A DNA stretch of 64,000 nucleotides, taken from assembly GCA_034189135.1 (NCBI GenBank), contig JAXHVO010000115.1, positions 1 through 64,000 of the forward strand, in the 5' to 3' direction. The translations under genes and the position numbers were made by a program. Source of the DNA: Thermodesulfobacteriota bacterium. Lineage in GTDB: Bacteria; Desulfobacterota; Desulfobacteria; Desulfobacterales; JAUWMJ01. This document shows positions 7,826-48,790 of the stretch, piece after piece. Positions within the stretch are counted from its first letter, which is position 1, and every line of letters starts with the position of its first letter. The notes below the pieces were generated by a model. It searched no databases, was not told the DNA's origin, and saw only the letters and a program-made list of their open reading frames with translations.

Positions 7826-7830
7826 GAGTA

Positions 7831-8485: not shown

Positions 8486-8546
8486 ATAAAAGCATTTTTA
8501 AAACGCCTCATTTGGATTTGATAAATATGGAAGAGGTAGGATAGAG

Positions 8547-8936
8547 ATGAATACAAGGCCGGCTGGCAAAAAAGGCTTAATCCGAATTTGGCATGCATTA
8601 TTATACTCCTTAAACGGCCTGCGTCTTGCCATTACCCAGGAAACATCGTTTAAACAGGAGTTAGCTATTTATATTGTTCTTCTGTTGGTGCTTTTGTTTT
8701 TGCCGCTGTCCTTGCACTTCAAATGCTTATTGTTTTTTGCCAATACAATGGTGCTAATTGTTGAAATCATCAATTCAGCCATTGAATCGATTGTGGATAT
8801 GGCATCTCCGGATTATCATGACCTTGCCGAAAAGGGAAAGGATCTTGGGAGCGCAGCTGTGTTTATCAGTATGGTTTTGGTCATCATATTGTGGCTGTGT
8901 GCCATATATGTGATGCTTAGTGGCGGGGGTGTATAA
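8547..8936 (+). CDS. dgkA: Diacylglycerol kinase, DgkA type
   Basis: This small integral membrane kinase phosphorylates diacylglycerol to phosphatidic acid and so recycles lipid released during envelope modification. The 129-residue protein has the family length and three membrane segments. It carries the signature VEIINSAIESIVDMASPDYH (residues about 72-91) followed by LAEKGKDLGSAAVF, which includes the catalytic Glu. The ATG follows GAGGTAGGATAG, a reasonable ribosome-binding site. It converges on the minus-strand gene downstream. Confidence 0.92.
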   Translation: MNTRPAGKKGLIRIWHALLYSLNGLRLAITQETSFKQELAIYIVLLLVLLFLPLSLHFKCLLFFANTMVLIVEIINSAIESIVDMASPDYHDLAEKGKDLGSAAVFISMVLVIILWLCAIYVMLSGGGV

Positions 8937-9010
8937 CCATAAGCGTTAAGTTATTTTTGCGCTGGCTGGACTGCGGAAGGTTTACTGAAAAAATAAACAT
9001 CGAACATCAA

Positions 9011-9156
9011 ACGTTCAACATCGAATGTTGAATGAAAAAAGATGAAGAAACACAAACAGGTGTTAAATATTCGGCATTGGTTTTGATTCGATTTTAAAAT
9101 AATTTGAAGAGCGAAGCGACATCATTATTCGACATTAGACGTTCGATGTTGGACGT
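9011..9156. repeat. Imperfect inverted repeat between convergent genes
   Basis: The arms at 9011-9034 and 9133-9156 pair over about 24 bases with around five mismatches. They are made of alternating words such as ACGTTC, CATCGA and TGTTGAA. The right arm runs up to the stop codon of the minus-strand gene. A hairpin here could terminate transcription from both sides. Confidence 0.6.
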
Positions 9157-26360: not shown

Positions 26361-26424
26361 CAGAAGGCTTACGGAGCACATTCATGAAAGTAGGGAGAGG
26401 GTGGATTGAAGGATAATGTTATTT

Positions 26425-26453
26425 TTGACACGATGTAAGCGGTAAAATCTATT
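26425..26453 (+). promoter_or_regulatory. Possible sigma-70 promoter for amt
   Basis: TTGACA at 26425-26430 is followed after 17 bases by TCTATT (26448-26453), a four-of-six -10 match. It lies 35 bases before the ammonium transporter ATG. No sigma-54 motif was found in this gap. Confidence 0.5.
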
Positions 26454-26487
26454 AAACCTAACAATAAATACGGGAGAAATATCTAAC

Positions 26488-27786: not shown

Positions 27787-27810
27787 AAGCTCATTATATA
27801 GATAGATTAA

Positions 27811-28179
<369 letters not shown>

Positions 28180-28206
28180 TTTACTACTTACGTAGTTAGT
28201 CTGAAG

Positions 28207-28325
28207 CTGTTTAGGTTGAAGGGGTCAGTAAAGCACGATTGCAGTACTTTAACAGAATGTGATTCTTACATGAAACATGTCTTTAAAATGTGCTTTTTCT
28301 ACCAGTCTTCAGCCTTCAACCTAAA
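28207..28325. repeat. Inverted repeat between P-II gene and glnA
   Basis: The core arms TTTAGGTTGAAGG (28210-28222) and CCTTCAACCTAAA (28313-28325) are perfectly complementary, with further gapped pairing inward around AAGCAC/GTGCTT. It fills most of the 189-base gap and is preceded at 28184 by a copy of the repeat seen at 6282. It could separate the expression of glnA from amt-glnK. Confidence 0.65.
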
Positions 28326-28368
28326 TGCCTATGCAATTACAATAATTTATTAAAGGAGAAATATTATT

Positions 28369-29781
28369 ATGACAGCAAAACAAGTATTAGACATGGTTAA
28401 AGAAAAGGATATCAGGGTTGTTGATATCCGCTTTATGGATTTTCCGGGTGTATGGCAGCATTTTACAGTTCCTGTCAGCGAACTGGAAGAGGCGAGTTTT
28501 GAAGACGGATTCGGTTTTGACGGGTCGAGTATCCGTGGGTGGCAGCCGATTCACGCCAGTGATATGCTGGTAGTTCCTGATGCTTCTACTGCACAAATAG
28601 ATCCTTTTTTCAAAGAGCAGACTCTCGTGCTGATAGGCAATATTGTTGATCCGGTGACGAGAGAGTCATACTCTCGTGATCCACGGTACATTACCCAAAA
28701 GGCCGAAACCTATCTGAAGAGCACCGGAATTGGTGACACCGCATATTTTGGTCCTGAAGCGGAGTTTTTTATCTTTGATAATATCCGGTTCGAGTCATCA
28801 AGCAACAGTTCTTTTTATGAAATTGATTCCATCGAAGGGGTCTGGAATACAGGCAGAGATGAAGATCCCAACCTGGGTTACAAGCCCAGGCACAAAGAAG
28901 GCTATTTCCCGGTTCCTCCCATGGATAAATTTCAGGATCTGAGAACAGAGATGGTGCTGGTTTTAGAGAGCCTGGGCATCGATGTTGAATGCCAGCACCA
29001 CGAGGTTGCTACCGCCGGCCAGGCGGAAATTGATATGCGCTTTAAGCCGTTACTTCAGATGGCGGATCAGCTGATGTGGTTCAAATATGTTTTGAAAAAC
29101 GTTGCCCATCGTCACAATCGTACCGTTACTTTCATGCCGAAACCGTTGTTTGAAGACAACGGAACAGGTATGCATACACATATAAGCATTTGGAATTCAG
29201 ATAAACCGCTTTTCGCCGGAGATCAATATGCCGGAGTATCTCAGGAAGCTTTATACGCCATTGGTGGAATTTTAAAGCACTGCAAGGCCCTTTGTGCCTT
29301 TACAAATCCCACCACCAACTCATACAAGAGGCTTGTTCCCGGTTTTGAAGCACCGGTAAATCTGGCCTATTCAAGTCGCAATCGAAGTGCGGCAATCCGA
29401 ATTCCCATGTATTCAGCGTCCCCCAAGGCAAAACGGATAGAGTTCAGAACGCCGGATCCCTCCTGTAATGGCTACCTGGCATTTTCCGCTATGCTTATGG
29501 CTGTTATAGACGGTATTCAGAACAAGATGGATCCCGGTGAGCCTCTTGATAAAAACATATACGATCTTCCACCTGAAGAGCTGGCTGAAGTCGAATCCGC
29601 TCCCGGCTCACTGGACGAATCGCTTAATGCATTAAAAGAAGACCACCAGTTTCTGTTAAAAGGGGATGTTTTCACTCAGGATGCTATCGACATGTGGATT
29701 GAATACAAAACGGAAAACGAAGTCAATCCGGTGAAACTCAGACCTCATCCCCACGAGTTTTTCCTCTATTTTGATATATAG
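28369..29781 (+). CDS. glnA: Glutamine synthetase type I
   Basis: This enzyme makes glutamine from glutamate, ammonium and ATP. At 470 aa it has the standard GSI length. Motifs include [13 protein letters not shown] (about residue 45), the catalytic [11 protein letters not shown] (about 127), the ATP region [14 protein letters not shown] (about 260) and [17 protein letters not shown] (about 357). Tyr398 in [10 protein letters not shown] matches the adenylylation site of GSI-beta enzymes, though no adenylyltransferase gene is in the window. AAAGGAG precedes the ATG. Confidence 0.96.
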
Positions 29782-29799
29782 TTTGTCATCAAAGGGTTT

Positions 29800-29830
29800 A
29801 GCCCTCCGTAATTTCGGAGGGCTGATTGCT
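29800..29830 (+). terminator. Hairpin terminator after glnA
   Basis: A perfect 9-bp stem (AGCCCTCCG at 29800-29808 with CGGAGGGCT at 29815-29823) has a 6-base loop. It is followed by a short T-rich stretch (GATTGCTTTT). The position 19 bases after the glnA stop supports a terminator. Confidence 0.75.
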
Positions 29831-30001
29831 TTTGACAACATGATTTGTTATCAATTTATAGTAAGGGTTTTTATTCATATCACTTTTTCTATTATACCAT
29901 TGATTCAAATGACTCTATTGAGAATCGAGGCTTTTTAACCATAACGTTAAACCAAAAGCCAGCTATATAGAAGTGGAAAATAGCTTTCAAACCTATTTGC
30001 T

Positions 30002-31993
30002 ATGTGCGGAATAGCGGGAATAATTAATTTTAGCTCTAAAGAAGACATGCAGGATTTACTCAGGCGCATGATCGGTCTTCTCCACCACCGGGGTCCGGAT
30101 GCTTCCGGCATATATGTCGACAGTAACGCCGGGTTGGCCCATGCAAGATTGAGTATCATAGATCTTAGCGGCGGTGTTCAGCCGATTTATAATGAAGATC
30201 AATCTGTGTGGATCGTGTTTAACGGTGAAATATTCAACTACCCTGAACTCCGTGAAGGTTTAATTTTACGGGGTCATCGGTTTTACACTCAAACCGATAC
30301 TGAAGTCATGGTGCACCTGTACGAAGAACAGGGCCCGGAAATGATTAAGAATCTGAATGGCCAGTTTGCCTTTGCTCTGTGGGACCAAAAAAAGAAAAAC
30401 CTGATGCTGGGGCGTGACCGCATGGGCATTCGGCCTCTTTTCTATCATCAAAGAAATGGCCGGCTGGTATTCGGTTCTGAAATAAAGGCATTGTTTGCAG
30501 ATCCGTTGATTCCTCGAAAGCTTGATACCCAAACGCTTTCAGATATATTTACCTGCTGGACGCCGGTGAATTTTTCCACCCCCTTTGAGGATATTAAACA
30601 GGTTCCCCCCGGCCATTATGCCATGTTCGGCAAAAAGGGTTTCAACATCCATCGCTATTGGAAATTATCTTTCAACAGTCAAAATGACGAGAACCCTGAT
30701 AAGCGGTCCCTTTCAGAATGGACTGAAGAATTAAAAGATCTGCTTCGTGATTCTGCCCGTATCAGGCTGCGCGCAGATGTTCCTGTGGGAGCTTATCTAA
30801 GCGGCGGGCTTGACAGCACCTATACCAGTGCGCTGGTAAAGCAAAATTTCAATAATTTGCTTCGGACTTTCTCAGTAAGCTTTACGGACAGCCGTTTTGA
30901 TGAAACCTCTTTTCAGAAAACTGCGGTTAAAGCTCTCAAAACCGAACACCGGGATATCAGGTGTTCAGAAAAAGATATCGGAGATGTGTTCCCTCAGGTG
31001 ATCTGGCATACGGAAGCCCCGATATTAAGGACGGCTCCGGCGCCGCTTTATCATCTTTCAAAACTGGTAAGGGAAAACAACTTCAAGGTAGTACTAACAG
31101 GTGAAGGGGCTGATGAAATATTTGCCGGTTATAATATCTTTAAAGAAGACAGGGTGCGCAGGTTTTGGGCGCGAAATCCTGATTCCGTCATGCGGCCAAT
31201 GCTCCTTGAAAGGCTTTATCCTTATATTTTTGCCCGACAAAAAGAAAAGGCAAAAGCATTCTTGGAAGGATTCTTCAAAAGGGGTCTTTTAGAAACCGAC
31301 TCGCCCGCTTATTCGCACTTGCTCAGGTGGGAAAATACTTCCAGACTTAAAAATTTTTTTTCTGCTGAGTTACAAAAGGAAACAGATAGTCTCAACAGTT
31401 TTTTTGATCGGTTTGTTTCAACGTTGCCCTCGGGTTTTATGTCATGGCATCCTTTATCAAGAGCGCAGTACACGGAGGTCAGTCTTTTCCTTTCAAACTA
31501 TCTTTTGTCTTCCCAGGGAGATCGCATGGCCATGGCAAATTCTGTTGAAGGGCGCTATCCGTTTCTCGACCATCGCGTGGTAGAGTTTGCCACACGGGTG
31601 CCGCCAGCTTACAGAATGAACGGGCTCAAAGAAAAATTCATTTTAAAACAGGCAGCTCGCGGGATTATACCCACTGAATTAATTGACAGACCAAAACAGC
31701 CGTATCGTGCCCCCATAAGCAAGTGCTTTTTTCAGGATCAGCCTGTAGATTATGTAGAGGACTTGCTTTGTGAAAGCGCCATCAGGAAAAACGGCTACTT
31801 CGACCCTAAAAAAGTATCACACCTAACAGCGAAATGCCGAGATAAGGACGGGCAGATTTTAAGTGAACGAGAGAATATGGCGCTGGTAGGAATTCTTTCA
31901 ACACAGCTTTTAGATCACCAGTTTATAGGAAGCTTTCAGGCTTTTCCGGTTCAAAAGTTGCAGGATGTTAAAATCTTTAACCTTTCAGATTAA
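30002..31993 (+). CDS. asnB: Asparagine synthetase, glutamine-hydrolysing
   Basis: This class B asparagine synthetase has 663 aa. The N-terminal Ntn-type glutaminase begins MCGIAGIINF, with Cys2 as nucleophile, and contains LLHHRGPDASG (about 23). The synthetase domain carries the ATP pyrophosphatase loop AYLSGGLDSTYTS (about 263) and a later VLTGEGADEIFAGYN. Some proteins of this length amidate peptidoglycan or other carboxylates instead of aspartate, so the substrate is not fully certain. It follows glnA on the same strand but behind a terminator. Confidence 0.88.
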   Translation: MCGIAGIINFSSKEDMQDLLRRMIGLLHHRGPDASGIYVDSNAGLAHARLSIIDLSGGVQPIYNEDQSVWIVFNGEIFNYPELREGLILRGHRFYTQTDTEVMVHLYEEQGPEMIKNLNGQFAFALWDQKKKNLMLGRDRMGIRPLFYHQRNGRLVFGSEIKALFADPLIPRKLDTQTLSDIFTCWTPVNFSTPFEDIKQVPPGHYAMFGKKGFNIHRYWKLSFNSQNDENPDKRSLSEWTEELKDLLRDSARIRLRADVPVGAYLSGGLDSTYTSALVKQNFNNLLRTFSVSFTDSRFDETSFQKTAVKALKTEHRDIRCSEKDIGDVFPQVIWHTEAPILRTAPAPLYHLSKLVRENNFKVVLTGEGADEIFAGYNIFKEDRVRRFWARNPDSVMRPMLLERLYPYIFARQKEKAKAFLEGFFKRGLLETDSPAYSHLLRWENTSRLKNFFSAELQKETDSLNSFFDRFVSTLPSGFMSWHPLSRAQYTEVSLFLSNYLLSSQGDRMAMANSVEGRYPFLDHRVVEFATRVPPAYRMNGLKEKFILKQAARGIIPTELIDRPKQPYRAPISKCFFQDQPVDYVEDLLCESAIRKNGYFDPKKVSHLTAKCRDKDGQILSERENMALVGILSTQLLDHQFIGSFQAFPVQKLQDVKIFNLSD

Positions 31994-34747: not shown

Positions 34748-36151
34748 TTATTTCCTGAAAGGTTCGGCTTTCATCCCGTAACGACGCATAATTTGTTGAA
34801 GTGCCTGACGTTCAAGTCCGCAAAGTCGTGCAGCCTGTGTCACATTTCCTTTGCTGGTTGTCAAAAGGTTGCCGATAAAATCGGCGTTAAACTGCTTTAA
34901 CACCTGTTCTTTTGCATCTTTATATGAGACATCTTGAAAGGTTCTTCCGGTGAAAGCGTTGTTTTTGGTAATCTTTGTAAAGCCAACATCACGGGGTGTA
35001 ATTTCGTCGGTGCTGGAAAATAATATGCCTTGCATAATAAGATTTTCCATTTCTCTGACATTCCCCTCCCAGGTCTGCTGCATAAAAATCTCCATGAGTT
35101 CCGTGGATATTTTATTCACCGATTTTTCCATTTTTTTGCTGTGCTTTTCCAGCAGGTGATTGGCGATAAGGGGGATATCCTCTCGATGTTTTCTGAGCGG
35201 AGGCAACTCCAAAGGAAGTACATTCAGTCTATAAAAAAAATCCTGCCTGAACTCGGTATTTTTTATCTTTTTCTCAAGATTCCGGTTGGTAGAAGAGATG
35301 ATGCGCACATCCACCTCAAAGGTTCTGGTATCGCCTAAAGGTTTAATCTCTTTTTCCTGCAAGACCCGAAGCAGTTTAGTTTGGATGGTGGGGCTGATAT
35401 CCCCAATTTCATCAAGGAATATGGTTCCCCTGTGGGCCGCCTGGAAAAGACCTGTTTTATTATGGGTGGCATGGGTGAACGCTCCCTTTTTATAGCCAAA
35501 AAGCTCACTTTCAAGTATGTTTTCCGGTACCGTTGGGCAATTAACCGCAATAAAAGGTCCTGATCGGCGATTACTTAATGAGTGTATGGCTCTGGCGGAA
35601 AGGTCTTTTCCTGTCCCTGATTCACCGGTGATAAGAACCGTCAGATCTGTTTTTGCCACCATCCGAATGGTCTCATACACCCGTTGCATTTTTGTACTCT
35701 TACCTACCAGATTTTGAAACACATCACCTTCGCGGCATTCTTTCTGGAGTCTGATGTTTTCCATAAGCAGGCTGCTTCTTTCCAGAGCTTTTTCCAGCCG
35801 CAGCACAAGCGCATCATGATCAAAGGGCTTGGTAATAAAATCATAAGCACTTCTTTTCATGGCCTTGACAGCCATTTCTATATCGCCGTGGCCGGTCATC
35901 ATTACCACCGTAAGATCAGGATTTTCTCTTTTTATCAACTCAAGAAGTTCCAGACCGTTCATACCCGGCATTTTTATATCGGCTAAAACCAGGTCAAACA
36001 TTTTTCTTTCAAGTAACTGCAGAGCCTCTTCTCCTGATAGCGCTGTTTCAACCGTGCAGTTTAAATCCGGCTCCAGACTTCGCTTTAAAAGCTGGAGCAT
36101 GTCCATCTCGTCATCAACTATTAAAATAGATCGTTTCATATATAGATTCAC
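34748..36151 (-). CDS. NtrC-family sigma-54-dependent response regulator
   Basis: This transcription activator works with sigma-54 polymerase. The receiver (residues 8-125) has phospho-acceptor Asp58 in VLADIKMPG. The AAA+ domain (about 147-380) has Walker A GESGTGKDLSA and Walker B GTIFLDEIGD. The sigma-54 contact loop reads GAFTHA (223-228) instead of the near-universal GAFTGA. A Fis-type helix-turn-helix ends the protein (GNVTQAARLCGLERQALQQI). It overlaps the kinase gene by 4 bases. Translation may start at GTG 36151 or at ATG 36139, which gives the more usual MKRSILIVDDE. A sigma-54 promoter at 41138 is a candidate target. Confidence 0.9.
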   Translation of the reverse strand: MNLYMKRSILIVDDEMDMLQLLKRSLEPDLNCTVETALSGEEALQLLERKMFDLVLADIKMPGMNGLELLELIKRENPDLTVVMMTGHGDIEMAVKAMKRSAYDFITKPFDHDALVLRLEKALERSSLLMENIRLQKECREGDVFQNLVGKSTKMQRVYETIRMVAKTDLTVLITGESGTGKDLSARAIHSLSNRRSGPFIAVNCPTVPENILESELFGYKKGAFTHATHNKTGLFQAAHRGTIFLDEIGDISPTIQTKLLRVLQEKEIKPLGDTRTFEVDVRIISSTNRNLEKKIKNTEFRQDFFYRLNVLPLELPPLRKHREDIPLIANHLLEKHSKKMEKSVNKISTELMEIFMQQTWEGNVREMENLIMQGILFSSTDEITPRDVGFTKITKNNAFTGRTFQDVSYKDAKEQVLKQFNADFIGNLLTTSKGNVTQAARLCGLERQALQQIMRRYGMKAEPFRK

Positions 36152-37320
36152 TTTTGTCTCAAGTTAACTGGAAGAAAAATGGTAAAGGTGGAGCCTTTTC
36201 CCCGCTTGCTTTCCACCAGGATTTCACCGTGGTGATTTTTTATTATTCCGTAACTCACCGACAGGCCCAGGCCGGTCCCTTCCCCTGTGGGTTTGGTTGT
36301 AAAAAAAGGATCGAAAATCCGGGATAAATTCTTTCTTTCAATGCCGTAGCCTGTATCAATTACTTTTATACAGGCCTGGCTTTTCGCTGGAACCAACTTG
36401 GTGGCTACTTTTATGGTTCCGGTATTGCCGACCGCGTGTTTTGCATTCATGAGAAGGTTCATGAACACCTGTTTTATTTTTCTTTCATTGATGAGTATCG
36501 GGGGAATAGTTATATCATAATCTCTGATAATTGCTACTTTATCAAGATCTGCATGATGCACGATAAAATTTAGCACATCATCTATTGCTTCATGAATGTT
36601 AATTACTTCCCATTCCGGGTTTGAGCTCCTGGAAAAACTGAGCAGATCTTCGACAATGGATTTGCAGTTTTTTACGTGTTTTTCAATGGTTTTAAGATCT
36701 TTGTACCGCTCAGTTTCAGAGTCTTCATCCCTTAAAAGAAGTTGAGTATAGCCCAGAATAATCCCTAAGGGATTATTCATTTCGTGGGCCACCCCTGCTG
36801 AAAGCTGTCCGATGGAGGCAAGTTTATCGGCCTGGGCCATCTGGTTTTCCATTAACTTTTTTTGTTTTTTATCACCAACAGGGTAATTAATGGCGCTGTC
36901 AAAATCCGAGGAATCCTTATTCGCACTTTCATTCACCGGGAATATTGAATCAGCGTTGTTTTTCTCTGTTTCTGTTATCATATTCGGGGTAAATTTCCAT
37001 ACTCGTGAAAAAAAAAAGGCAACCACCGCTGCAACTATAAGCATGAATGAATTAACAGCCCCTGTATATGGGATTATCAAATTCGATATCCATTCATTGC
37101 CTGACAGTAAAAGGCTATATGTTGCAATATGACCAACAGATCTAAAAACTGCAAAAAGGGCGAGGGAGAAGCAAAGCCAGAAAAAGTATTCCCAGATGAT
37201 CTTACCCGGATGTTTATTCATCAGTTTGCGGACAATATTCAGGCAAAAAAGAGATAAGACGGCCACTAAGATCGAGCCTGCAAGATCCACAATCGATATG
37301 GGTAACGAAGAAATAATCAT
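36148..37320 (-). CDS. Membrane sensor histidine kinase
   Basis: This is a kinase of 390 aa, partner of the overlapping sigma-54 regulator. Three membrane segments (about 10-30, 43-68, 83-105) form the input region with no sizeable periplasmic domain. The HisKA domain has His179 in LSAGVAHEMNNPLGIILG, and the ATPase domain has N, G1 (VIDTGYGIE) and G2 (GEGTGLGLSVSYGI) boxes. With no extracytoplasmic sensor of its own, it may be driven by the small membrane proteins encoded directly upstream; this is inference from overlaps of 4 bases on both sides. Confidence 0.9.
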   Translation of the reverse strand: MIISSLPISIVDLAGSILVAVLSLFCLNIVRKLMNKHPGKIIWEYFFWLCFSLALFAVFRSVGHIATYSLLLSGNEWISNLIIPYTGAVNSFMLIVAAVVAFFFSRVWKFTPNMITETEKNNADSIFPVNESANKDSSDFDSAINYPVGDKKQKKLMENQMAQADKLASIGQLSAGVAHEMNNPLGIILGYTQLLLRDEDSETERYKDLKTIEKHVKNCKSIVEDLLSFSRSSNPEWEVINIHEAIDDVLNFIVHHADLDKVAIIRDYDITIPPILINERKIKQVFMNLLMNAKHAVGNTGTIKVATKLVPAKSQACIKVIDTGYGIERKNLSRIFDPFFTTKPTGEGTGLGLSVSYGIIKNHHGEILVESKRGKGSTFTIFLPVNLRQK

Positions 37321-37820
37321 GCCTGCTCCTTTTTCAAACCATCAGGCATTGAATCATTTAGCGGCTTTTCATTTAAAAGGCGTATTAAGCCATAATATAA
37401 AAAGATAAACCCGGGCAGCAGAAGCAGATAGTCCATTCGGGCAAGATAGTAAAAAAATTTTAGAAGATTGTTATCAAAATAATCATTGATCTTAACTTGC
37501 CAGAGTCCAATTGTTTTTATCTGGATAATATTGAGCTGTTCATCCAGAAAATGAACTGCAGATGCATCCAGGCTCCACAGGATAAAAAAAAAGGCTGAAT
37601 ACTGGATGAATTTCCAGCCTGGTGACCGGAGGCATTGTTTATTCTTCAGCCGGTAAATCAGAATTCCCATGGAAATGATAAAAAAGATATGAGCGAGCTG
37701 ATGGATATGGACACCCTCCGGGCGGCCATAATCACAGGTGGATAGAGCCGGGTCCGGGCTTAAAATTGTCCACAAAAAAGCGGCAACAAAAAAAACAACG
37801 GTGTAGACTCTGTTTTTCAT
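37317..37820 (-). CDS. Small multi-spanning membrane protein, unknown
   Basis: I do not recognise this family. The product of about 167 aa has an N-terminal hydrophobic segment, a short loop with CDYGRPEGVHIHQLAH (note the His and Cys residues), then three more hydrophobic stretches. The stop overlaps the start of the kinase gene by 4 bases, so the two are translationally coupled. The ATG at 37820 is chosen because the product then begins with a natural membrane leader; a GTG at 37871 would add 17 residues. The His/Cys-containing loop could bind a metal or heme, but no CxxCH motif is present. Confidence 0.65.
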   Translation of the reverse strand: MKNRVYTVVFFVAAFLWTILSPDPALSTCDYGRPEGVHIHQLAHIFFIISMGILIYRLKNKQCLRSPGWKFIQYSAFFFILWSLDASAVHFLDEQLNIIQIKTIGLWQVKINDYFDNNLLKFFYYLARMDYLLLLPGFIFLYYGLIRLLNEKPLNDSMPDGLKKEQA

Positions 37821-37882
37821 AATTAAGATTTCTTTGCTTAACTGAATGTTGCATGAAAATTGATGAGGCACTGTGTCAAATT

Positions 37883-38479
37883 TCAGGCTTTAGCCGACTG
37901 GTTTCTTTTTAACATGACTTTCTGATACTTTTTTTTAATAAAAAACCAGCATAGGTAAATAACAAGGATTGACACGATAAACCAGAAGACACCTCCCACC
38001 AGAACAGGATTTGGTCCGGAACCGGCGAATTTGAATACATACTCACGCCCAAAAACCTTAATCAAATTTTCAGTTCTGTACGCTTCATTAACATAAGCGG
38101 CAAAGATTAAAATGGGAAGATACTTTGTCACAATGCTGAGCATAAATCCTTCAAAAAAGAAATCATAATAAACCTTGTTCAGTTTTGCCTGATCAATATT
38201 TTTTGCCAGGAGTCTGGCCTTTTCTGAATCTTCACATTTCATGGCCTCTTGGCGAATATTGTACCAGTGCTTGAACTCTTTTGTCAGTGCTTCGTATCGT
38301 TTGGTTTTAATCAGTTTGGTCAGAATTTTTGTTATTACAACTGTAAGGAGAGCAATGACTGATATGGCAAAGGCCGGCCCGAAAAAGTTTAACGGAGCGA
38401 AAACAAAATCAAAAAAACTTTCAAAAAAATCGATTAAATCTAAAATCTTAAACCACAGACTGTCTAATAATTGTTCCAT
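37883..38479 (-). CDS. Membrane protein, possibly EMC3/DUF106-like
   Basis: This protein of 198 aa has membrane segments near residues 30-52, 112-130 and 157-180. Between the first two lies a charged cytoplasmic helical hairpin (KRYEALTKEFKHWYNIRQEA and onward). This pattern resembles EMC3/DUF106 and other members of the YidC-like insertase superfamily, but the match is by eye and weak. It is the first gene of the run leading through the membrane protein, kinase and sigma-54 regulator. Confidence 0.6.
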   Translation of the reverse strand: MEQLLDSLWFKILDLIDFFESFFDFVFAPLNFFGPAFAISVIALLTVVITKILTKLIKTKRYEALTKEFKHWYNIRQEAMKCEDSEKARLLAKNIDQAKLNKVYYDFFFEGFMLSIVTKYLPILIFAAYVNEAYRTENLIKVFGREYVFKFAGSGPNPVLVGGVFWFIVSILVIYLCWFFIKKKYQKVMLKRNQSAKA

Positions 38480-38813: not shown

Positions 38814-40517
38814 TTATATCCAGATTTCAATTTTAAAGAATCTGAAGAACAGGAAGAACAGGGTAATGGCCAGAACGACCTTCAGAGTTTTTTCACTGAA
38901 CAACTTCTGGACCCGGCTGCCCAGCATCCCGCCGGCAAATCCACCGATGATAATGGCAATCATCAGCCACATGTCCGGAAAGTAACCGGTCATCAGGTAT
39001 CCGATGAATGCGCCGACACTGGAAAAACAGGTGCCGATGAGTGAAATCGGAACCGCCACGTACATGGGGAGTGCACCAAGCGTGGTCATGGCAGGCACCA
39101 GCAAAAATCCTCCACCGATTCCGAAAGATCTTGACACCACACCAATGGCAAGACCCAAAATGGCAAAAAGCAGGGGATTGATTTTGAACTCTTCGCCCCA
39201 GAACTTAAACCGGTAATCCGTAATGCCTGATTTTACCGGTTCAATCTTGCCCATCTCGACAGAAGTACCTTCAGCCTTGGCTTTGGCGACGGCTTCATTG
39301 AACTTCTTAACCATGGCTTTGATGTTTTTTCGTTTCTCCATGACCTTGGGCATCATTTCCCTCAAGGTCTGAATACCCATGAGGACCACCAGGACGGCCA
39401 GCCATTCCTTATACGCTTTCATGGGCAGGACTGCGGAAACATATTTTCCCAGCCAGATGGAGCCGATGAAAATGCCGACCCCAAAGGAGATCCCCACCGG
39501 CCAGGCCACTCGCCTTTCCTTTACGGCATATCGATAGAAAGACCCCAGGGGTGAGAACAGGGTTAAAGCCATGTTGGAGGGTTTCAGCACGTTAGCGGCA
39601 TTGATGCCCACCGGACCGGCGGTATGGACAATCAATATCTGGAATGCTGCCATGAGCATGCCGCCTGCTGCTCCGATCATGGAAAAGTATGTTCCTACCA
39701 GTATCGCCCCGATGATAATCCAGATGGGGTTCATATAGCGAAATCCCTTGGTCAGCCAGAATCCGTTTTTGGCCACATTATAGGAACCGCTTTTTTCACC
39801 GTTGACATAAACGTCAAAAGCAGTGTCCGGTGGTGTATGGCGAAAAGTTTTAAATGAAGCGGTAAATTTGCCCGTGGCTTTATCCAACTTGATTGACGTG
39901 TTTTTATCCCAGTATTTGCCGCTTCCTTCGTCAGTGATGACGGTACGGGAAAAAATCGTTACCTTGCCCACCTTGCTGCTCTCTTTAACGATGGTGTTGA
40001 TACCGTAATTAGACTCGTTGGCGTATTTAAGAAAATTCCACTGGTCTTCTGAATTGATGGGGCCCAACATGGATTTGGCTTCAGCATCCACATCGCCAAA
40101 CTTCTTTTTCAGTTTGTACATGGTGGTGGAGTAAATTCCTCTACCCTTACCCAGGAGAACCGATGGGCCACCGAATCTCTTTTTGCCCTCTTTACCAAAG
40201 GCGTCCGGATTGGTAGTGAGCATATAATAAAGCGGTGGAATTTTTGTATCATTGTTAAACTTTTTTTTCTTCCCATCTTTTTTCAGCCTTTTGACTTCAT
40301 GGGTACCGTTTGTATCCGCCGGCGAAAACATCTTCGATTGTGCAATGGCGATATACAGATCCTTGCCCGGTTCGATAGCCCCCTCTATGGTCACTTTGTC
40401 GCCGGCTTTGTATTCAGCAGCAGATATTGTCGTTCCCGCCAGTGTGGTGCCCGGAATTGCTATGACAATAGCAGCCGCGAAAAGTAACACGCTGAACAAC
40501 GGTAAAAATTTTTTCAT
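38814..40517 (-). CDS. TauE/SafE permease with large N-terminal exported domain
   Basis: This 567-residue protein has a signal peptide (to about 27, ending TTLAGT) and then an extracytoplasmic region of about 230 residues that matches no family I know (beta-rich, many Lys). The C-terminal 300 residues are TauE/SafE, with the two Gly-rich repeats SMIGAAGGMLMAAF and SRSFGIGGGFLLVPAM. A charged loop of about 60 residues (KVMEKRKNIKAMVKKF and onward) splits the two halves. AAGGAGGAACC gives a strong ribosome-binding site, and a terminator follows. The periplasmic domain could capture an anion such as sulfite or a sulfonate for the channel. This is inference. Confidence 0.8.
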   Translation of the reverse strand: MKKFLPLFSVLLFAAAIVIAIPGTTLAGTTISAAEYKAGDKVTIEGAIEPGKDLYIAIAQSKMFSPADTNGTHEVKRLKKDGKKKKFNNDTKIPPLYYMLTTNPDAFGKEGKKRFGGPSVLLGKGRGIYSTTMYKLKKKFGDVDAEAKSMLGPINSEDQWNFLKYANESNYGINTIVKESSKVGKVTIFSRTVITDEGSGKYWDKNTSIKLDKATGKFTASFKTFRHTPPDTAFDVYVNGEKSGSYNVAKNGFWLTKGFRYMNPIWIIIGAILVGTYFSMIGAAGGMLMAAFQILIVHTAGPVGINAANVLKPSNMALTLFSPLGSFYRYAVKERRVAWPVGISFGVGIFIGSIWLGKYVSAVLPMKAYKEWLAVLVVLMGIQTLREMMPKVMEKRKNIKAMVKKFNEAVAKAKAEGTSVEMGKIEPVKSGITDYRFKFWGEEFKINPLLFAILGLAIGVVSRSFGIGGGFLLVPAMTTLGALPMYVAVPISLIGTCFSSVGAFIGYLMTGYFPDMWLMIAIIIGGFAGGMLGSRVQKLFSEKTLKVVLAITLFFLFFRFFKIEIWI

Positions 40518-40689: not shown

Positions 40690-41097
40690 TCATTTGCTTA
40701 ATTTAAAATATTTTATTGCCAGCAGTGCACCCAGTTCACTGCAAATAATACCGATTACCACAAAAAGAACAAAATCCGACTTGGTAAACAGATTTTCGTC
40801 AAACAAATAAAAAGAAGTGATACTTAAAATAATATAAGTGATGATAACGTTTAAAAAACCAGCGCCAATGGAGGATATTTGTTTATACTTTATGGCTTCC
40901 CTGGTTTTATCTACCAGGGAATATCCGGTCATTGCCGTATTAAATGCAATTATCCACGGTATAAACGGCACCACACGGTATGGCTCCAGGAAAACAGCCA
41001 AAAAGATTGTAAGGACTGCCGTGCCAAATATACCCGATAGTGTGCAATAAGCAAACTTACCCAGCAAAGGGGCCTTTCCCTTTAGGTCAATCATCAT
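40690..41097 (-). CDS. Small four-helix membrane protein, unknown
   Basis: This 135-aa protein has four hydrophobic segments (about 17-35, 38-55, 77-97, 108-128) and a short cytoplasmic loop (DKTREAIKYKQISSIG). I recognise no family. Two consecutive ATG codons start it (41097 and 41094), and GGAG immediately upstream fits the second better. A sigma-54 promoter lies 41 bases upstream, so it heads a transcript that may continue 170 bases later into the TauE fusion gene. Confidence 0.7.
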   Translation of the reverse strand: MMIDLKGKAPLLGKFAYCTLSGIFGTAVLTIFLAVFLEPYRVVPFIPWIIAFNTAMTGYSLVDKTREAIKYKQISSIGAGFLNVIITYIILSITSFYLFDENLFTKSDFVLFVVIGIICSELGALLAIKYFKLSK

Positions 41098-41249: not shown

Positions 41250-41571
41250 ACATTAAGGCCAAAAAAAAATATTTGACCATTGGAGGAAGTTTAAATGTGA
41301 ATAAATAATTTTGCACCCACCCATGATTTTTAAAATTAGGTTTAAATCGAATATGATATATTGGTGCAATTTTTTTTTATCAATGCATGAATTATATTGC
41401 GATTTCCTTCCAATATTTATTTTCAGCTCGGATTTGATACGGCAAAAAATAACGCGAAATGAACTCATCTTATTGAATTTAAATATTTTTTTAACATCCA
41501 TGGCTGAATTGGAAGTATTTAAGTTTAACTTTTCTGCTGGTATGAATATTGCTTGTAATAGATGGACTATA

Positions 41572-41935: not shown

Positions 41936-44728
41936 ATGGATGTAGAGTATATGAATTCACGTGCAAAGAGATACCAGTTTCTTTCCACCCTTTTTCGTGA
42001 CGAGATCTCTTTGGAGCTCATTAAGGCAATGCAACAGGATGAGTTTCTGGATGGGTTCAACGAGTCCGTCACCGGTTGCGGGTTTCTGGACTTGATAAAT
42101 GGTGCGGAGGTGATAACCAGGTGTTTAAAAGACAATGATGCAGAAAAGCTTCAGAAAGAGCTTAGCTACGATTACGCGGATATCTTTCTGAACGCCGGTG
42201 TCAATCCTGTCTTTCCGTATGAATCCTGTCATGTGACCGGAGACCCGGTGGTGATGCAGAAACCTGTTTTTGAGCTGAGAGAATATTTCCATAAAGCAGG
42301 TGTTTCTAAGAATCCTGATTACAAAGATCTGGAGGAACACATTGCCGTGCAGATGGAGCTTCTCCGTTATCTCCTGGAAAATGGGAATGAAGATCTATAC
42401 AGAGATTTTTTTAAAAACAAGTATACAAAATGGGTCTCTTCATTTTGCGACCAGCTTGTCGGATCCACCAAGACCGATTTTTATCAGGGTCTGGCCCACT
42501 TTACCCGGGGCGCCATGATGTGTGAGAGTATGAGGCTGGAGGGTTTTACCAGGGGCGAAGAGGTTACCAGAAAAATGGTTCCGGCCTGTGAATCACTTAA
42601 CCTGGATCCTGCTTATTTTACCCTGGTTGAAGGCGCTATAGAACCGGAACCGGAAAAGAAAGTCCCCACTCACTGTTATACCTGTGGGGCACTCTGTGGC
42701 ATGACGGCCAAGGTTAAGGACGGTATACTTATGAGTACTGGCGGTCTGCAGGGAGATCCGAAGGGGGGCGGCAGGCTTTGCCCCAAAGGTGCGGCAGCGG
42801 CCAAACATGTCTATTCGGCATACAGGCTTAAAACGCCTCTTATTAAAGAGGATGGCCGTTTCCGGAAGGCCACATGGGATGAGGCCTTAGATCGAGTGGT
42901 TGAAGGAATAAAGAGTATTGAGCAGGGTAAGCTAGGATATATGAGAGGCAATGATTTTGCCAACTCGATTCACGAGGCCCTGTTTGATCATTTGGGTTGC
43001 CCCAAGACCACCCACCGACCCATGTGCGACAATGCCAACCGCATGGCCAATGAGAAAAACCTGAATGACAAGAGACCCTGGATTAACTATCAGGAGTCTG
43101 ATTATATTCTTCATTTCGGAATGAATGAGCTGGCTAGCTCCTACAGTCAACGCAAGACGGCGCAACTTCGTGCAGCCCTAAAACGGGGTGCCAAATTAGT
43201 GGTCTTTGACCCACGCCGCTCTGATACCGCGAAGGCGGCTACCGAATGGATTCCGATTAAATCGGCCACAGATGCTGCCGTTGCTTTGGGTATGGCCTAT
43301 GTGATCATTAAAGAAGAAATTTATGACAAGGAATTCGTTGAAAGCTGGACTCACGGTTTTGAGGAGTTTAAGAAAAGGGTAATGGGTGATGAGGATGGTA
43401 TTGCCCGCAATCCGGAGTGGGCAGGTAAGATAAGCGGGGTGCCGCCTGAAACTATTGAACGTATTGCCAGGGAATTCGCCATGGCCAAGAATAAGGGGTG
43501 TATCTCCTGGACCGGCCTGGCACAGGTCCCGAATGGAATGTATGGTACTGCGGCTATCCAGGCACTCAACGGTCTTTGTGGCACTTTTGATGCACCCGGT
43601 GGGCCGGCTCTGCCTTTCAAGCGCAAGCTGAAACCGGTCTGGGGAAATGGGCAGAAAAAACCTGCCGCCACAGATGCTCCCAAACTAAATAAGTTCGGCA
43701 TCTGGACCGGTTGGGCGCCGGCGTATCTTCTAGAGGATGTTGAGGCCGGAAAGCTTAAAGGTATGATCAATTATTTCGGTGATCCGGTGCTTTCATGGGG
43801 GAACCAGGAGGCCATAACCAAGGCCATTGAAATGATGGATTTCAAGGCTTCGATTGAGGCATTTATGTGCAACACAGCGCTGCTTTGTGATGTGATACTG
43901 CCCGACACATCCTGGTTGGAGCAGAGCCAGGTAAAGGCTGACTGGCTCTATGAGGCCTTCATCGCCTATTATGCCGAGGTGGTAAAGCCTATGTATGATT
44001 CAAAACCCATGTGGCTGATAACAAAGGAACTGGCCAACAGGCTTGGTCTTGGCAAACACTTCCCATGGGACGACATTGAAGAAGCAGAGCGCAATCAACT
44101 TGCCGGGACTCCCTGGTCTTACGACGAGCTCAAGGACAAAGGATTTATCATCACCGACGAATCTGAGTACTATAAGTATAAGAAGTGGGGTTCCTTTAAT
44201 ACACCGGATGGCTATGGGTCTTCAGGTAAGACTTCTACGGGGAAGTACAATTTTTTAAATACCGTGGCTGAGGAAAAAGGCATAGACCCGCTTCCCGACT
44301 ATAAAGAGCCTGATCCAGAGCTGGCACCGGATGATGAGTATCCTTTTATCTTTGGAAATTTTAGGTTTTTCGAGCATGAACACTCATCTACTTTCAACAA
44401 CATTCAGCTTATGAAGATAAATAGCAGCAATCCTTTGTGGATCAACACGCTGGATGCCCAGGAACTGGGAATAGAAGAGGGTGACAAAGTTAGAGTAAAA
44501 TCGCCATGGGGAGAGGTGGAAATAAAAGCCAAGCCTACATGGGGAATTATGCAGGGTGTCGTTGCTTCGGGCGGTGGTTTCGGACACATTCGCGGTCTGG
44601 AAGGCGATCCTAAATTTCCCCAGTTCGGCGGGGTAAATACGCCTGGGATTATGAAACCCAATTACACCGAAAAGGTGGGCGGCACGCCGTTGCTCAAGTA
44701 TATAAAAACCAGGGTAGAAAAGATATAA
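41936..44728 (+). CDS. TorD chaperone fused to a molybdopterin oxidoreductase
   Basis: This protein of 930 aa has two parts. Residues 1-215 are a TorD/DmsD-type chaperone domain (SYDYADIFLNAGVNPVFPYES near 77, then EEHIAVQMELLRYLLENG near 133). Residues from 243 are a DMSO-reductase-family catalytic subunit: Cys247, Cys250, Cys254 and Cys282 (HCYTCGALC to RLCPKG) fit a 4Fe-4S site, and Cys364 in RPMCDNANRM sits where the metal ligand is expected. The C-terminal domain binding molybdopterin begins near 795. There is no Tat signal and no neighbouring Fe-S or membrane subunit, so it is probably a cytoplasmic single-subunit enzyme. Substrate unknown. AAGGAGGAG precedes the ATG. Confidence 0.85.
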   Translation: MDVEYMNSRAKRYQFLSTLFRDEISLELIKAMQQDEFLDGFNESVTGCGFLDLINGAEVITRCLKDNDAEKLQKELSYDYADIFLNAGVNPVFPYESCHVTGDPVVMQKPVFELREYFHKAGVSKNPDYKDLEEHIAVQMELLRYLLENGNEDLYRDFFKNKYTKWVSSFCDQLVGSTKTDFYQGLAHFTRGAMMCESMRLEGFTRGEEVTRKMVPACESLNLDPAYFTLVEGAIEPEPEKKVPTHCYTCGALCGMTAKVKDGILMSTGGLQGDPKGGGRLCPKGAAAAKHVYSAYRLKTPLIKEDGRFRKATWDEALDRVVEGIKSIEQGKLGYMRGNDFANSIHEALFDHLGCPKTTHRPMCDNANRMANEKNLNDKRPWINYQESDYILHFGMNELASSYSQRKTAQLRAALKRGAKLVVFDPRRSDTAKAATEWIPIKSATDAAVALGMAYVIIKEEIYDKEFVESWTHGFEEFKKRVMGDEDGIARNPEWAGKISGVPPETIERIAREFAMAKNKGCISWTGLAQVPNGMYGTAAIQALNGLCGTFDAPGGPALPFKRKLKPVWGNGQKKPAATDAPKLNKFGIWTGWAPAYLLEDVEAGKLKGMINYFGDPVLSWGNQEAITKAIEMMDFKASIEAFMCNTALLCDVILPDTSWLEQSQVKADWLYEAFIAYYAEVVKPMYDSKPMWLITKELANRLGLGKHFPWDDIEEAERNQLAGTPWSYDELKDKGFIITDESEYYKYKKWGSFNTPDGYGSSGKTSTGKYNFLNTVAEEKGIDPLPDYKEPDPELAPDDEYPFIFGNFRFFEHEHSSTFNNIQLMKINSSNPLWINTLDAQELGIEEGDKVRVKSPWGEVEIKAKPTWGIMQGVVASGGGFGHIRGLEGDPKFPQFGGVNTPGIMKPNYTEKVGGTPLLKYIKTRVEKI

Positions 44729-45037: not shown

Positions 45038-45415
45038 ATGGCCAAAATATTGGTATTAGATGATGTATTGGATGCAGGTAATCTGGTAAAAAGGATTTTG
45101 CAAAAAAAAGGCCACGAAGTATTTACCTTTACAGAAGAGGAAGATGCGCTGGATTTTACCAGATCCAATGAGATAGACCTGGCCATTCTGGATATCAAAT
45201 TAAAAAAGATGAGCGGTATTGAGGTGTTGAATGAACTAATAAAAATAACTCCTTCAATACGTGCCATTATGCTTACCGGTTACCCCACCGTAGAGACGGC
45301 GCTGGAATCCCTGAAGCTGGGAGCAACCGAATACTGTGTTAAGCCGTTGGATAAGGAAGAGTTGGAGAAAAAAGTGGAAAAGGTATTAAAAAGCGAAAAA
45401 CCGGTTTTCAAGTGA
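45038..45415 (+). CDS. Single-domain response regulator
   Basis: This CheY-like receiver of 125 aa has no output domain. Asp8/Asp9 (LVLDDV), phospho-acceptor Asp52 (LAILDIKL), Thr80 (MLTGYP) and Lys102 (VKPLDKEE) are all present, so phosphorylation should work. GAGGAG lies just before the ATG. It is followed by a PhnD-like lipoprotein and a large histidine kinase on the same strand and is the most likely partner of that kinase, passing the phosphate on or acting by protein contact. Confidence 0.88.
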   Translation: MAKILVLDDVLDAGNLVKRILQKKGHEVFTFTEEEDALDFTRSNEIDLAILDIKLKKMSGIEVLNELIKITPSIRAIMLTGYPTVETALESLKLGATEYCVKPLDKEELEKKVEKVLKSEKPVFK

Positions 45416-45694: not shown

Positions 45695-46615
45695 ATGAAG
45701 AAAAGATTGTTCAGCCCGATATTAATCTTGATTTTATTGCTGGCAGGATGCGGTCAGGAGCAACCTGCCCAAAGGATAGACCTGAGCAAAAGAGAGAAGG
45801 TTATTTTAAGGGAAGATGAAAATATCATCACCTATGCGTATCTCCCCCAATATTCACACACTGTCTCTTATCACCGGCATCATTTATTGGTTGAGTACCT
45901 GAGAAAAGAAACAGGACTGATCATAAAGCAGATATTTCCCGATACGTTTAACGAGCATGTCAAAATGGTGGGGCAGGGAAGAATTGACATTTCCTACTCA
46001 AACCCGTTTATCTATATAAAAATAGCAAATACATACGGTGCCCATGCCTTTTCCCGTGTGGTTGAAATGAATAACAGGAAAAACTTTCGCGGGCAGATTA
46101 TTTGTCGCGCTGATAACAGGAGCATTAAAAGCATTGCCGATTGCCGGGGAAAACGATGGATTGCTGTTGATCGAACTTCTGCAGGCGGTTATCTCTATGC
46201 CCTGGGACATTTTTTTGAACATGGCTTAACGAAAGCGGATTTCAGTGAAATTGCCTTTTCTCCCGGTCCGGGTGGCAAGCAGGAAAAGGTGGTTCTGGCC
46301 GTTTATGCCGGGAAATACGATATCGGTACCATACGGGAAGGAACCTTGAACGTGGTTTCGGACAAAATTGACATCAACGAAATAAGAGTGGTGGCCAACT
46401 CTCGATGGTATCCCGGCTGGGTCTATGCAGCGCGAAAAGATCTGTCGCCTGAAATAGTGAAAAAGATCAAACGGGCCCTGTTGAAACTCAATTATAACGC
46501 CAAAGAACACCGAAAAATACTGCAGACAGCCAAAATCATGGGGGTCATATCTTCCGTGGACCAGGATTTTAATCCGGTTAGAAAATTGGCAGCCAACTTG
46601 GGTATGGGCTTTTAG
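45695..46615 (+). CDS. PhnD-like phosphate/phosphonate-family binding lipoprotein
   Basis: This is a periplasmic lipoprotein of 306 aa. The lipobox LLLAGC places the lipidated Cys at 19. The mature part is a PhnD/AioX-type binding protein: QYSHTVSYHRHHLLVEYLRK (about 50), MVGQGRIDISYSNPFIYIKI (about 90), and DRTSAGGYLYALGHFFEHG (about 152). No ABC permease or ATPase is nearby; a kinase gene follows 123 bases later, so it more likely serves as a ligand sensor for that kinase than in uptake. AioX, which senses arsenite for the AioSR system, belongs to this family. Confidence 0.83.
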   Translation: MKKRLFSPILILILLLAGCGQEQPAQRIDLSKREKVILREDENIITYAYLPQYSHTVSYHRHHLLVEYLRKETGLIIKQIFPDTFNEHVKMVGQGRIDISYSNPFIYIKIANTYGAHAFSRVVEMNNRKNFRGQIICRADNRSIKSIADCRGKRWIAVDRTSAGGYLYALGHFFEHGLTKADFSEIAFSPGPGGKQEKVVLAVYAGKYDIGTIREGTLNVVSDKIDINEIRVVANSRWYPGWVYAARKDLSPEIVKKIKRALLKLNYNAKEHRKILQTAKIMGVISSVDQDFNPVRKLAANLGMGF

Positions 46616-46738: not shown

Positions 46739-48790
46739 ATGAAACTCGGTTTTCAGAGCAAAATTTATTTAGGTCTTTTTTCCCTGCTTTTGCTTCTTGG
46801 AATGGTCATCCTGTTTGTCGTCAGCATGATTATGAAAGAAGCGCTGCTGGAGGAAAATCGAAATCGTGGAATTTCCATCGGGAGTATTCTGGCAGCCCGT
46901 ATGGCAGAACCTGTGTTGGCGGTGGACTTTTTGCGCATGAAAACGCTGGTGGATGAAACCGTCCAGTTGAGTGATGATATCTTCTATACCTTCGTTCTGA
47001 ATGACATGGACAAACCCCTTGTGCATACTTTTAAGGGAGGTTTTCCTGTTGAACTGAGAGAAGCAAATACGGTTTCCAACACTCAGAAATACAGTGCCCG
47101 CCTGCTGGATACAGGCAAACAGCTTATTTACGACTACGCCTTTCCCATTATCATTGACGAAGATCGTTTTGGAACTGTTCGGATCGGTTTACTTAGGACC
47201 AAAATCCAGGAAGCGATCTATCGCCTGTGGTGGAGTACCTTCCTGTCAACAGGAATCGTCATTATTATTGCTATTTTCGTAGGCACAGCTGTGGCTGTCT
47301 CTGTCACCCGCCGCGTCAAAATCCTTCATAAATCTTCGGAACAGGCCCTTATGGGAAACCTTGATATTCAGACCGCTCCGTTACTCAAAAAAAATTGCTG
47401 GGAGATTATGAAGTGCAATAAAAAAGAATGTCCGGCATACGGAGAAGTTTATAATCGCTGCTGGTACCTGGCAGGGACTTTATGCCCTGACTGCATAGGG
47501 GGTGATTATGCCCAAAAAATAGAAAGCTGTAAAAACTGTCAAGTTTACCATGAGTGCGCCGGTGATGAAATCCAGAGCCTGGCAGAAAGTTTCGATACCA
47601 TGGCCCTGTCTTTAAAAACGCATCTGTCCGAACTGCAAAATTCTGAAAAAATATTGAAAGAACAGCGCCAGCTTCTCAAGACTGTACTGGATGCCACACC
47701 CGACTTCGTTTCATTGCAGGACATCAATTCGATTTACCTGGCGGCAAACAAGTCTTTTTGTGATCTGGTCAGTAGAGGGGAGCAAGAAATTATCGGCAGA
47801 ACCGATTACGATCTCTTTCCTAAAGAACAGGCGGAAAAATACTTGAAGGAAGACCGCAGGATTCTGAAATCGGGCAAACCAATGGTTAAAGAAAACAGTA
47901 TTACCGGCCCCAAGGGCAGCAGATGGCTTCACATGGTTAAAATTCCAGTTTATGAGGCTGACGGGAAAATTGGGGGACTTTTATGCAGCGGTCGTGATAT
48001 TACAGAATTCAAACGGATTCAGGAACAGCTTTCCCATGCCCAAAAAATGGAATCCATCGGCCAACTCATCGCCGGTATCGCGCATGAGATCAATACCCCG
48101 ATGGGTATCATTTTAGGATATGTGCAGCTTTTGCTCGAGGAAGGAGATTCTAACAGTCAGGCTTATAATGATCTAAAGATAGTCGAAAAACAAACCAGGA
48201 TTTGCAAAAAGATTGTATCAGACCTGTTAAGATTTTCCCGTCGCACCAAAAGCACCATGAGTCCAATAAATATAAACGATACCATAGAAGACGTCCTTTC
48301 TGTGGTGGAACACACGTTCAGTCTTGACCGGGTTTCCCTTGTCCGACGGCTGGATCCTGATTTGCCGACTATGATAGGAGATAAGGAAAAGATTAAACAG
48401 GCAATTATCAACCTGGTAAATAATGCGTTTGATGCCATTCGTGGTGATGGTATGATCACCATCTCAACACACTATAATGTTCAGCTTGATGAGATAATTA
48501 TAAGCGTTCTCGATACAGGAGAAGGCATTCAGCCTGAAGAAATTGACAAAATATTTGATCCTTTTTATACCACCAAGCCTGTAGGAAAGGGGACCGGTCT
48601 CGGTCTGGCGGTTACTTTCGGTATCGTTCAAGAGCACAACGGAAAGATAGAGGTCGAGAGTCCGCCTTCGTCTGAAATAAACAAAGAAGGAAAAATTACC
48701 TCAGGTACACTTTTTATTATACATTTGCCGGTATCGAATAAAAAACAAAAAATAGAGTTCGATCATGTCGAACATATTGGTGTTGAATGA
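46739..48790 (+). CDS. Membrane PAS histidine kinase with two-CW segment
   Basis: This is a sensor kinase of 683 aa. Order: membrane segment (about 9-31), periplasmic domain (about 32-160), second membrane segment (about 163-188), HAMP, a Cys-rich two-CW segment (about 218-275, NCWEIMKCNKKECPAYG then YNRCWYLAGTLCPDC and CKNCQVYHEC), PAS (about 310-430), HisKA with His near 449 (GQLIAGIAHEINTPMG) and a full ATPase domain (GKGTGLGLAVTFGIV). About ten cysteines just inside the membrane suggest metal or redox sensing, which is inference. With the PhnD-like lipoprotein and lone receiver upstream it forms a probable three-component system. Confidence 0.9.
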   Translation: MKLGFQSKIYLGLFSLLLLLGMVILFVVSMIMKEALLEENRNRGISIGSILAARMAEPVLAVDFLRMKTLVDETVQLSDDIFYTFVLNDMDKPLVHTFKGGFPVELREANTVSNTQKYSARLLDTGKQLIYDYAFPIIIDEDRFGTVRIGLLRTKIQEAIYRLWWSTFLSTGIVIIIAIFVGTAVAVSVTRRVKILHKSSEQALMGNLDIQTAPLLKKNCWEIMKCNKKECPAYGEVYNRCWYLAGTLCPDCIGGDYAQKIESCKNCQVYHECAGDEIQSLAESFDTMALSLKTHLSELQNSEKILKEQRQLLKTVLDATPDFVSLQDINSIYLAANKSFCDLVSRGEQEIIGRTDYDLFPKEQAEKYLKEDRRILKSGKPMVKENSITGPKGSRWLHMVKIPVYEADGKIGGLLCSGRDITEFKRIQEQLSHAQKMESIGQLIAGIAHEINTPMGIILGYVQLLLEEGDSNSQAYNDLKIVEKQTRICKKIVSDLLRFSRRTKSTMSPININDTIEDVLSVVEHTFSLDRVSLVRRLDPDLPTMIGDKEKIKQAIINLVNNAFDAIRGDGMITISTHYNVQLDEIIISVLDTGEGIQPEEIDKIFDPFYTTKPVGKGTGLGLAVTFGIVQEHNGKIEVESPPSSEINKEGKITSGTLFIIHLPVSNKKQKIEFDHVEHIGVE

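Follow-up and report, generated by a model that had tools for sequence, protein, structure and literature searches.

Chaperones of the TorD/DmsD/NarJ family (PF02613), which are normally separate proteins, have two roles in the maturation of molybdoenzymes, the binding of signal peptides and the binding of the catalytic core for insertion of the cluster and Moco (PMC10609526, PMC5123574). NarJ assists the insertion of the cluster and then of Moco into the open apo enzyme, whose core carries a second chaperone site (PMC5123574, PMC10609526), and it serves both the cytoplasm-facing NarG and the soluble cytoplasmic NasC (PMC6618116, PMC5123574). The sequence-only reading of the locus described here started from the premise that TorD-family chaperones normally act in trans on Tat-exported clients; a restriction to exported enzymes does not hold. 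The fusion of such a chaperone with a cytoplasmic enzyme is therefore less paradoxical than it seemed, and the unusual part is the covalent link. NarJ likewise is a TorD-family chaperone of cytoplasmic molybdoenzymes; nevertheless, it acts in trans and on nitrate reductases of a different catalytic clade.

On the catalytic side, PsrA/PhsA are the best sequence and structure match of the fusion, with the [4Fe-4S] and Mo-ligand cysteines in the same positions, but the Psr/Phs enzymes are Tat-exported and comprise FeS (B) and membrane (C) subunits, all three of which traits are missing from the fusion. Acetylene hydratase (2e7z) is a stand-alone soluble MopB protein with one [4Fe-4S] cluster and a fold close to that of the fusion; it differs in having its catalytic Asp13 in place of a glycine, in the lack of a TorD domain, and in its position on a separate branch. 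The MOLY cluster of sulfur disproportionators codes for MolyA, MolyB, and a separate TorD-like MolyC, with MolyAB predicted to be extracellular (PMC12998232). Compared by description, it resembles the fusion in its phylum, in the combination of MopB with a TorD-type chaperone, and in its sulfur context, but it consists of three separate genes, while the fusion is one apparently cytoplasmic polypeptide. In the Azoarcus pAZKH operon (L079), comprising genes for a kinase, PhnD, FeS, NrfD, MopB, and a free TorD, the PhnD and kinase genes lie beside MopB as in the fusion loci, but TorD is free and partner subunits are present. This plasmid arrangement is a useful unfused comparison for the fused locus.

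In the window (the whole stretch of 64,000 nucleotides that was analysed) the chaperone is the N-terminal domain of its client (Table 1). The fusion of TorD and MopB in one protein is real and conserved, and it represents an apparently undescribed enzyme family. The genome of the window is a draft in 140 contigs and one homologue (L062) is split into pieces by frameshifts, as would suit an artefact of sequencing or assembly, or an overlooked stop separating two neighbouring genes. However, the same one-piece frame, continuous over the junction, is present in about 35 further, independent genomes (51–94% identity), including archaea and the complete chromosome of Desulfosarcina widdelii; the gene begins at the ATG of the TorD domain with its own ribosome-binding site, aaggaggagattttATG (GGAGGAG), directly 5′ of it; and both halves evolve together under selection. 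The unbroken frame across genomes and the purifying selection on both halves rule out the artefact, whose probability we consider negligible, and the one-piece gene of the sequence-only reading stands, with no missed stop or frameshift found between its two parts.

Table 1. Features of the fusion gene and its neighbourhood (window coordinates)
Feature	Position	Strand	Basis and remarks
NtrC-type sigma-54 activator (receiver, AAA+, helix-turn-helix)	34748..36151	-	GESGTGK and ELFGYKKGAFT read in sequence; 11 loci
Membrane histidine kinase	36148..37320	-	HisKA, HATPase_c; overlaps neighbour genes by a few bases
Small membrane protein encoded 5′ of the kinase, perhaps a sensor component	37317..37871	-	no Pfam match; 10 loci
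Membrane protein adjoining transporter	37883..38479	-	no Pfam match; conserved in 10 loci
TSUP (TauE/SafE) anion transporter with ~250-aa N-terminal extension	38814..40517	-	PF01925, E 3e-32; divergent from fusion
Small membrane protein between transporter and fusion	40690..41097	-	no Pfam match; conserved in 5 loci
Sigma-54-like -24/-12 element TGGTATGAATATTGCT	41538..41553	+	upstream of fusion; consensus match only
TorD-MopB fusion gene	41936..44728	+	uninterrupted ORF (ATG start, 930 codons, zero internal stops), 930 aa, with ribosome-binding site
TorD/DmsD-type chaperone domain, residues 1–215	41936..42580	+	PF02613, 1n1c match, fold match
Linker, residues 216–239	42581..42652	+	less constrained than either domain; few conserved columns
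Predicted Mo/W-bisPGD catalytic subunit, residues 240–930	42653..44725	+	PF04879, PF00384, PF01568; fold match PsrA 2vpw, E 4e-33
First three [4Fe-4S] ligands, C247-x2-C250-x3-C254	42674..42697	+	invariant in 28 homologues
Fourth [4Fe-4S] ligand, Cys282	42779..42781	+	invariant in 28 homologues
Signature HRxMCDNxxRM with Cys364 (codon 43025–43027), predicted Mo/W ligand	43013..43045	+	profile alignment
Receiver-only response regulator	45038..45415	+	PF00072; homologues directly upstream of fusion in deep lineages
PhnD-type periplasmic binding lipoprotein	45695..46615	+	PF12974, E 1e-56; near fusion in 6 loci
Cache-PAS histidine kinase	46739..48790	+	HisKA, HATPase_c, PAS; directly after PhnD in L022, L033, L050, L051

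The N-terminal domain matches Pfam Nitrate_red_del (PF02613, the TorD/NarJ family) at residues 64–172 (E 1.3e-19 to 2e-18) with 67–72 bits against a curated cut-off of 22.2, as expected of a REMP family domain. The nearest NCBIfam model, and the nearest named member by profile, is TorD, with 77.6 bits, below the equivalog cut-off of 132. Shewanella TorD (1n1c) aligns with residues 5–194 (9e-12 in a PDB sequence search, 1e-24 with the family profile). The AlphaFold2 model of the domain alone (pLDDT 90, pTM 0.88) has the all-helical TorD/DmsD fold: its seven best structure matches are all YcdY/DmsD-type chaperone chains with probability 1.00, the next match having 0.12, and TMt is 0.68–0.77 for YcdY and 0.66–0.69 for DmsD. 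The domain also contains the TorD hallmarks, i.e. the YADxFLNAGxNPxxPYES and LEEHIAVQME stretches. The TorD-like character claimed earlier for residues 1–215 is thus borne out by Pfam, the PDB sequence match, and the fold. The domain departs from the REMP family in not being free-standing and acting in trans, since in all full-length homologues it is part of a single frame of ~930 aa.

In comparison with two close orthologues, dN/dS is 0.044–0.047 for the TorD domain, 0.046–0.048 for the catalytic part, and 0.12–0.19 for the linker; the equal purifying selection on both domains indicates that the TorD domain is maintained and is not a relic. A PF02613 profile search in the genome of the window (95.5% complete) gives one copy, the fused one, and the same is true of two further genomes (G035 and G006), while other fusion genomes (G024, G052, G348, G349, G350) carry one or two free TorDs besides. 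The fusion thus appears self-sufficient in some hosts, not always replacing free TorDs.

Residues 240–930 are predicted to be a complete Mo/W-bisPGD catalytic subunit of the DMSO reductase superfamily, with the Pfam domains Molybdop_Fe4S4 (PF04879, 240–294), Molybdopterin (PF00384, 297–702), and Molydop_binding (PF01568, 813–894). The four cluster cysteines named in the sequence-only reading (247, 250, 254, and 282) and Cys364, its candidate metal ligand, are all invariant in 28 full-length homologues, so that both the domains and the ligands of the superfamily are present. In a profile alignment Cys364 corresponds to Cys173 of PsrA, the Mo ligand, and this, together with its invariance, supports its proposed role; it also aligns with the ligand Cys141 of acetylene hydratase in the published numbering (position 138 of the chain, the shift of 3 following from the cluster cysteines). 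The HRxMCDNxxRM signature occurs in every fusion listed (in one with RQ for RM) and is absent from every unfused relative examined. The residue following C250, where acetylene hydratase has its catalytic Asp13, is Gly251 in the window and Gly, Asn, or Leu in other family members. The AlphaFold2 model of the whole protein, built with 28 homologues (pLDDT 79, pTM 0.83), has PsrA as its best structure match, and the PDB sequence matches of the catalytic part are PsrA (2vpw), acetylene hydratase, and formate dehydrogenases. No Tat signal or other signal peptide is found in the fusion sequence, and no gene for an FeS, NrfD, or cytochrome subunit lies nearby among the larger ORFs of the window. These two absences, noted earlier and upheld here, make a cytoplasmic stand-alone enzyme, as had been suggested, probable.

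Among NCBIfam models the catalytic part is nearest to PhsA, with 267 bits against a cut-off of 694, and since even this best score is below the cut-off, it belongs to no named equivalog. Moreover, it differs from the formate dehydrogenase alpha subunit (245 vs 666 bits) in its invariant Cys364-Asp365, with no Sec/Cys-His, and from ArrA (137 vs 1600 bits) in lying apart from the ArrA-like L081–L083 in the tree. TtrA, for which the tree included no row, is set apart by score only (71 vs 1750 bits). In the tree, which had been proposed in the sequence-only reading as a check, the catalytic parts of the fusions form a single clade with 100/100 support, whose stem is long at 1.06 changes per column, separate from PhsA/PsrA and outside Arr, Dms, Fdh, and acetylene hydratase; the last two lie on the same side of the tree as the fusion clade, by long-branch joins that are uncertain. 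No intermediates were seen between the family (at least 51% identity) and its unfused relatives (about 34% or less). It is worth mentioning that a second large family of Phs-like MopB proteins, ~695 aa long, without a signal or a TorD domain and with the motif CFMCSxRCP (L008–L020, L085–L091), is common in the phylum and is apparently also cytoplasmic.

A scan of species-representative genomes gave about 40 relatives with the fusion, whole or as contig-end fragments, at 51–94% identity, each with an ORF continuous across the junction where this is covered, except for L062. The hosts include D. widdelii (complete chromosome, L040), Dethiosulfatarculus sandiegensis, and a Desulfofustis genome, many further ones being sediment and vent MAGs, and deeper members (L069–L071, 53–55% identity) are found elsewhere in the phylum. 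Two Archaeoglobales genomes carry the full-length fusion (L095/L098 and L096/L099) and in a third (L100) it is split over two contig ends; simple mis-binning of the third is unlikely, as its contigs bear genes of archaeal type and show the neighbour order of the others. In a survey, also proposed in the sequence-only reading, that covered 297 genomes from the phylum of the window and 197 from that of the archaea, this family alone gave true TorD-MopB fusions among the matches listed. On plasmids, there was no fusion, only ordinary MopB. The family thus spans Bacteria and Archaea and has a recurrent regulatory and transporter context, both of which the earlier reading overlooked. Four PF02613 matches in ORFs of 450–790 aa (L073–L076) were rejected as fusions, being free TorDs run together with sequence that is unrelated or out of frame. 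In the MAG contig L062 (positions 6304–9137) the frameshifts leave the fusion gene in four pieces, which reflects a sequencing error or a pseudogene.

The sigma-54-like element upstream of the fusion is the single such site in the window, where none was expected; most close orthologues have it conserved 5′ of the gene, and for most of the orthologues its score is 9–10 of 11 (shuffle p 0–0.03). The divergent set composed of the TSUP transporter, the small membrane proteins, the histidine kinase, and the NtrC-type activator is found again in many close orthologues, and genes for a PhnD-type protein, a kinase, and a receiver lie 3′ of the fusion in several loci. A TSUP homologue is found a few genes from the fusion in 13 loci; it adjoins the fusion divergently in three Archaeoglobales genomes, and in L055 it lies 5′ of the fusion on the same strand, with genes for a membrane protein and a receiver-like protein in between. 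This adjacency is absent in D. widdelii and G320, but its repeated occurrence is unlikely to be due to chance, as the genomes hold only about 2–11 TSUP genes. The divergent TSUP-fusion pair in archaea, accompanied in two of the genomes by a small membrane protein, suggests a functional unit transferred between domains of life. Siroheme sulfite/nitrite-reductase-type genes are located near two fusions. Taken together, the neighbours suggest an enzyme that works alongside anion sensing and transport. The small membrane protein beside the archaeal TSUP, in two Archaeoglobales genomes, is similar in size to the 37883–38479 product; the sequence similarity is weak and homology of the two is not claimed (blastp E 2e-4 to the L055/L037 proteins, probability 3% in a profile comparison with the window cluster).

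In several deep lineages (L040–L043, L054, L055, L069, L071) a receiver-only protein is encoded 15–45 bp upstream of the fusion on the same strand (15 bp in D. widdelii). In all of these proteins except that of L069 the phospho-acceptor Asp is missing or replaced, and they have in common a C-terminal tail (K-G/A-S/A-LNV/L and variants) that other receivers lack. The receiver-like protein may bind the enzyme, and it is a candidate pseudo-receiver binding partner, not an electron carrier. Coordinates of the genes are, for instance, 7591–7962 in L040, 7555–7929 in L055, and 283–675 in L071.

On balance, we favour a cytoplasmic single-subunit Mo/W-bisPGD oxidoreductase with one [4Fe-4S] cluster, which carries a dedicated TorD-type maturation chaperone covalently attached at its N terminus and working in cis, and which would act on an anion-type substrate. 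Since the fusion has no signal peptide, only the core-binding role of the chaperone can apply, and with a tether of about 25 residues this binding would be intramolecular. During synthesis of the chain, the attached TorD domain would bind the still-open apo catalytic domain at a second, signal-peptide-independent site like that described for TorD/TorA and NarJ/NarG, keep it open for insertion of the cluster and then of bisPGD, and remain attached 1:1 after maturation, so that no separate TorD would be needed; in the fusion genomes with free TorDs, a free chaperone could serve there. The earlier idea of an enzyme with a loading chaperone of its own agrees with all the observations, while the loading in cis, which is probable, we infer; the soluble electron partner suggested in the same reading stays hypothetical.

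The membrane kinase and the NtrC-type activator would switch the gene on from the sigma-54 promoter upon the appearance of an external anion, and the TSUP transporter, a member of a functionally diverse family (PMC5840216), would move the substrate or product anion. The enzyme would turn over that anion, for which a sulfur oxyanion is the foremost, though tentative, candidate (thiosulfate/polysulfide-type chemistry). The TSUP linkage, the PhnD-type protein, the siroheme genes near two fusions, and the best match to Phs/Psr point to an anion or to sulfur, and it is the hosts and the Phs/Psr resemblance that would make sulfur the likeliest element; as none of the named reductase clades includes the catalytic part, the sulfur substrate is a guess by context. 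It is possible, if speculative, that the fusions form a cross-domain family of self-maturing molybdoenzymes with TorD in cis, paired in some lineages with a receiver-like protein devoid of a phosphorylation site that may control the enzyme directly.

A TorD domain that stays attached after maturation might also have given up cofactor loading and now serve as a permanent structural element or docking site, for instance for the receiver-like protein, the membrane, or an electron carrier. The lower sequence conservation of this domain than of the catalytic part would agree with such a change, as would the receiver-like protein co-encoded directly upstream in several deep lineages, in most without the phospho-acceptor Asp and with the common tail. 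Nevertheless, the YADxFLNAGxNPxxPYES residues are kept in nearly all members, the fused copy is the only TorD-family domain in three genomes, and most close orthologues lack an adjacent receiver, which makes docking a rather unlikely role. Another explanation of the stand-alone enzyme is non-redox catalysis like that of acetylene hydratase or transhydroxylase, which would need no electron partner; acetylene hydratase is among the best structure matches (TMt 0.76) and on the same side of the tree. However, this tree position is a flagged long-branch join, PsrA/PhsA score higher, and Asp13, the catalytic residue of acetylene hydratase, aligns with Gly251, so that we regard non-redox catalysis as improbable. 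An oxidoreductase with its chaperone attached is the reading retained.

No paper describing a TorD-MopB fusion was found in the literature searched, with subscription papers outside the search and a prior mention therefore possible, and the words "fused" or "fusion" are absent from a 2015 survey of the NarJ subfamily. Each half is of a known kind; what appears to be new in that literature is their joining in one chain, the distinct clade, and the occurrence in archaea. The complexes in which TorD-family chaperones keep an apo-molybdoenzyme open and pass on the bulky bisPGD are transient, which is part of the reason why this step is poorly understood; a chaperone and its client joined 1:1 by nature in one covalent chain would provide a stable target for cryo-EM, on which binding independent of the signal peptide could also be tested. 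In sulfate-reducer-related bacteria and Archaeoglobales, the family moreover points to an enzyme activity yet to be assigned, and one of its hosts, D. widdelii, is in culture.

Elsewhere in the window, positions 23754–31990 comprise a nitrogen-assimilation block with genes for a GlnD-type uridylyltransferase, an ammonium transporter, glutamine synthetase, and an asparagine synthase-type protein, and a RACo-type (corrinoid reductive activase) protein is encoded at 11698–13263 on the minus strand, beside nucleotide-cyclase-domain and cNMP-binding genes.
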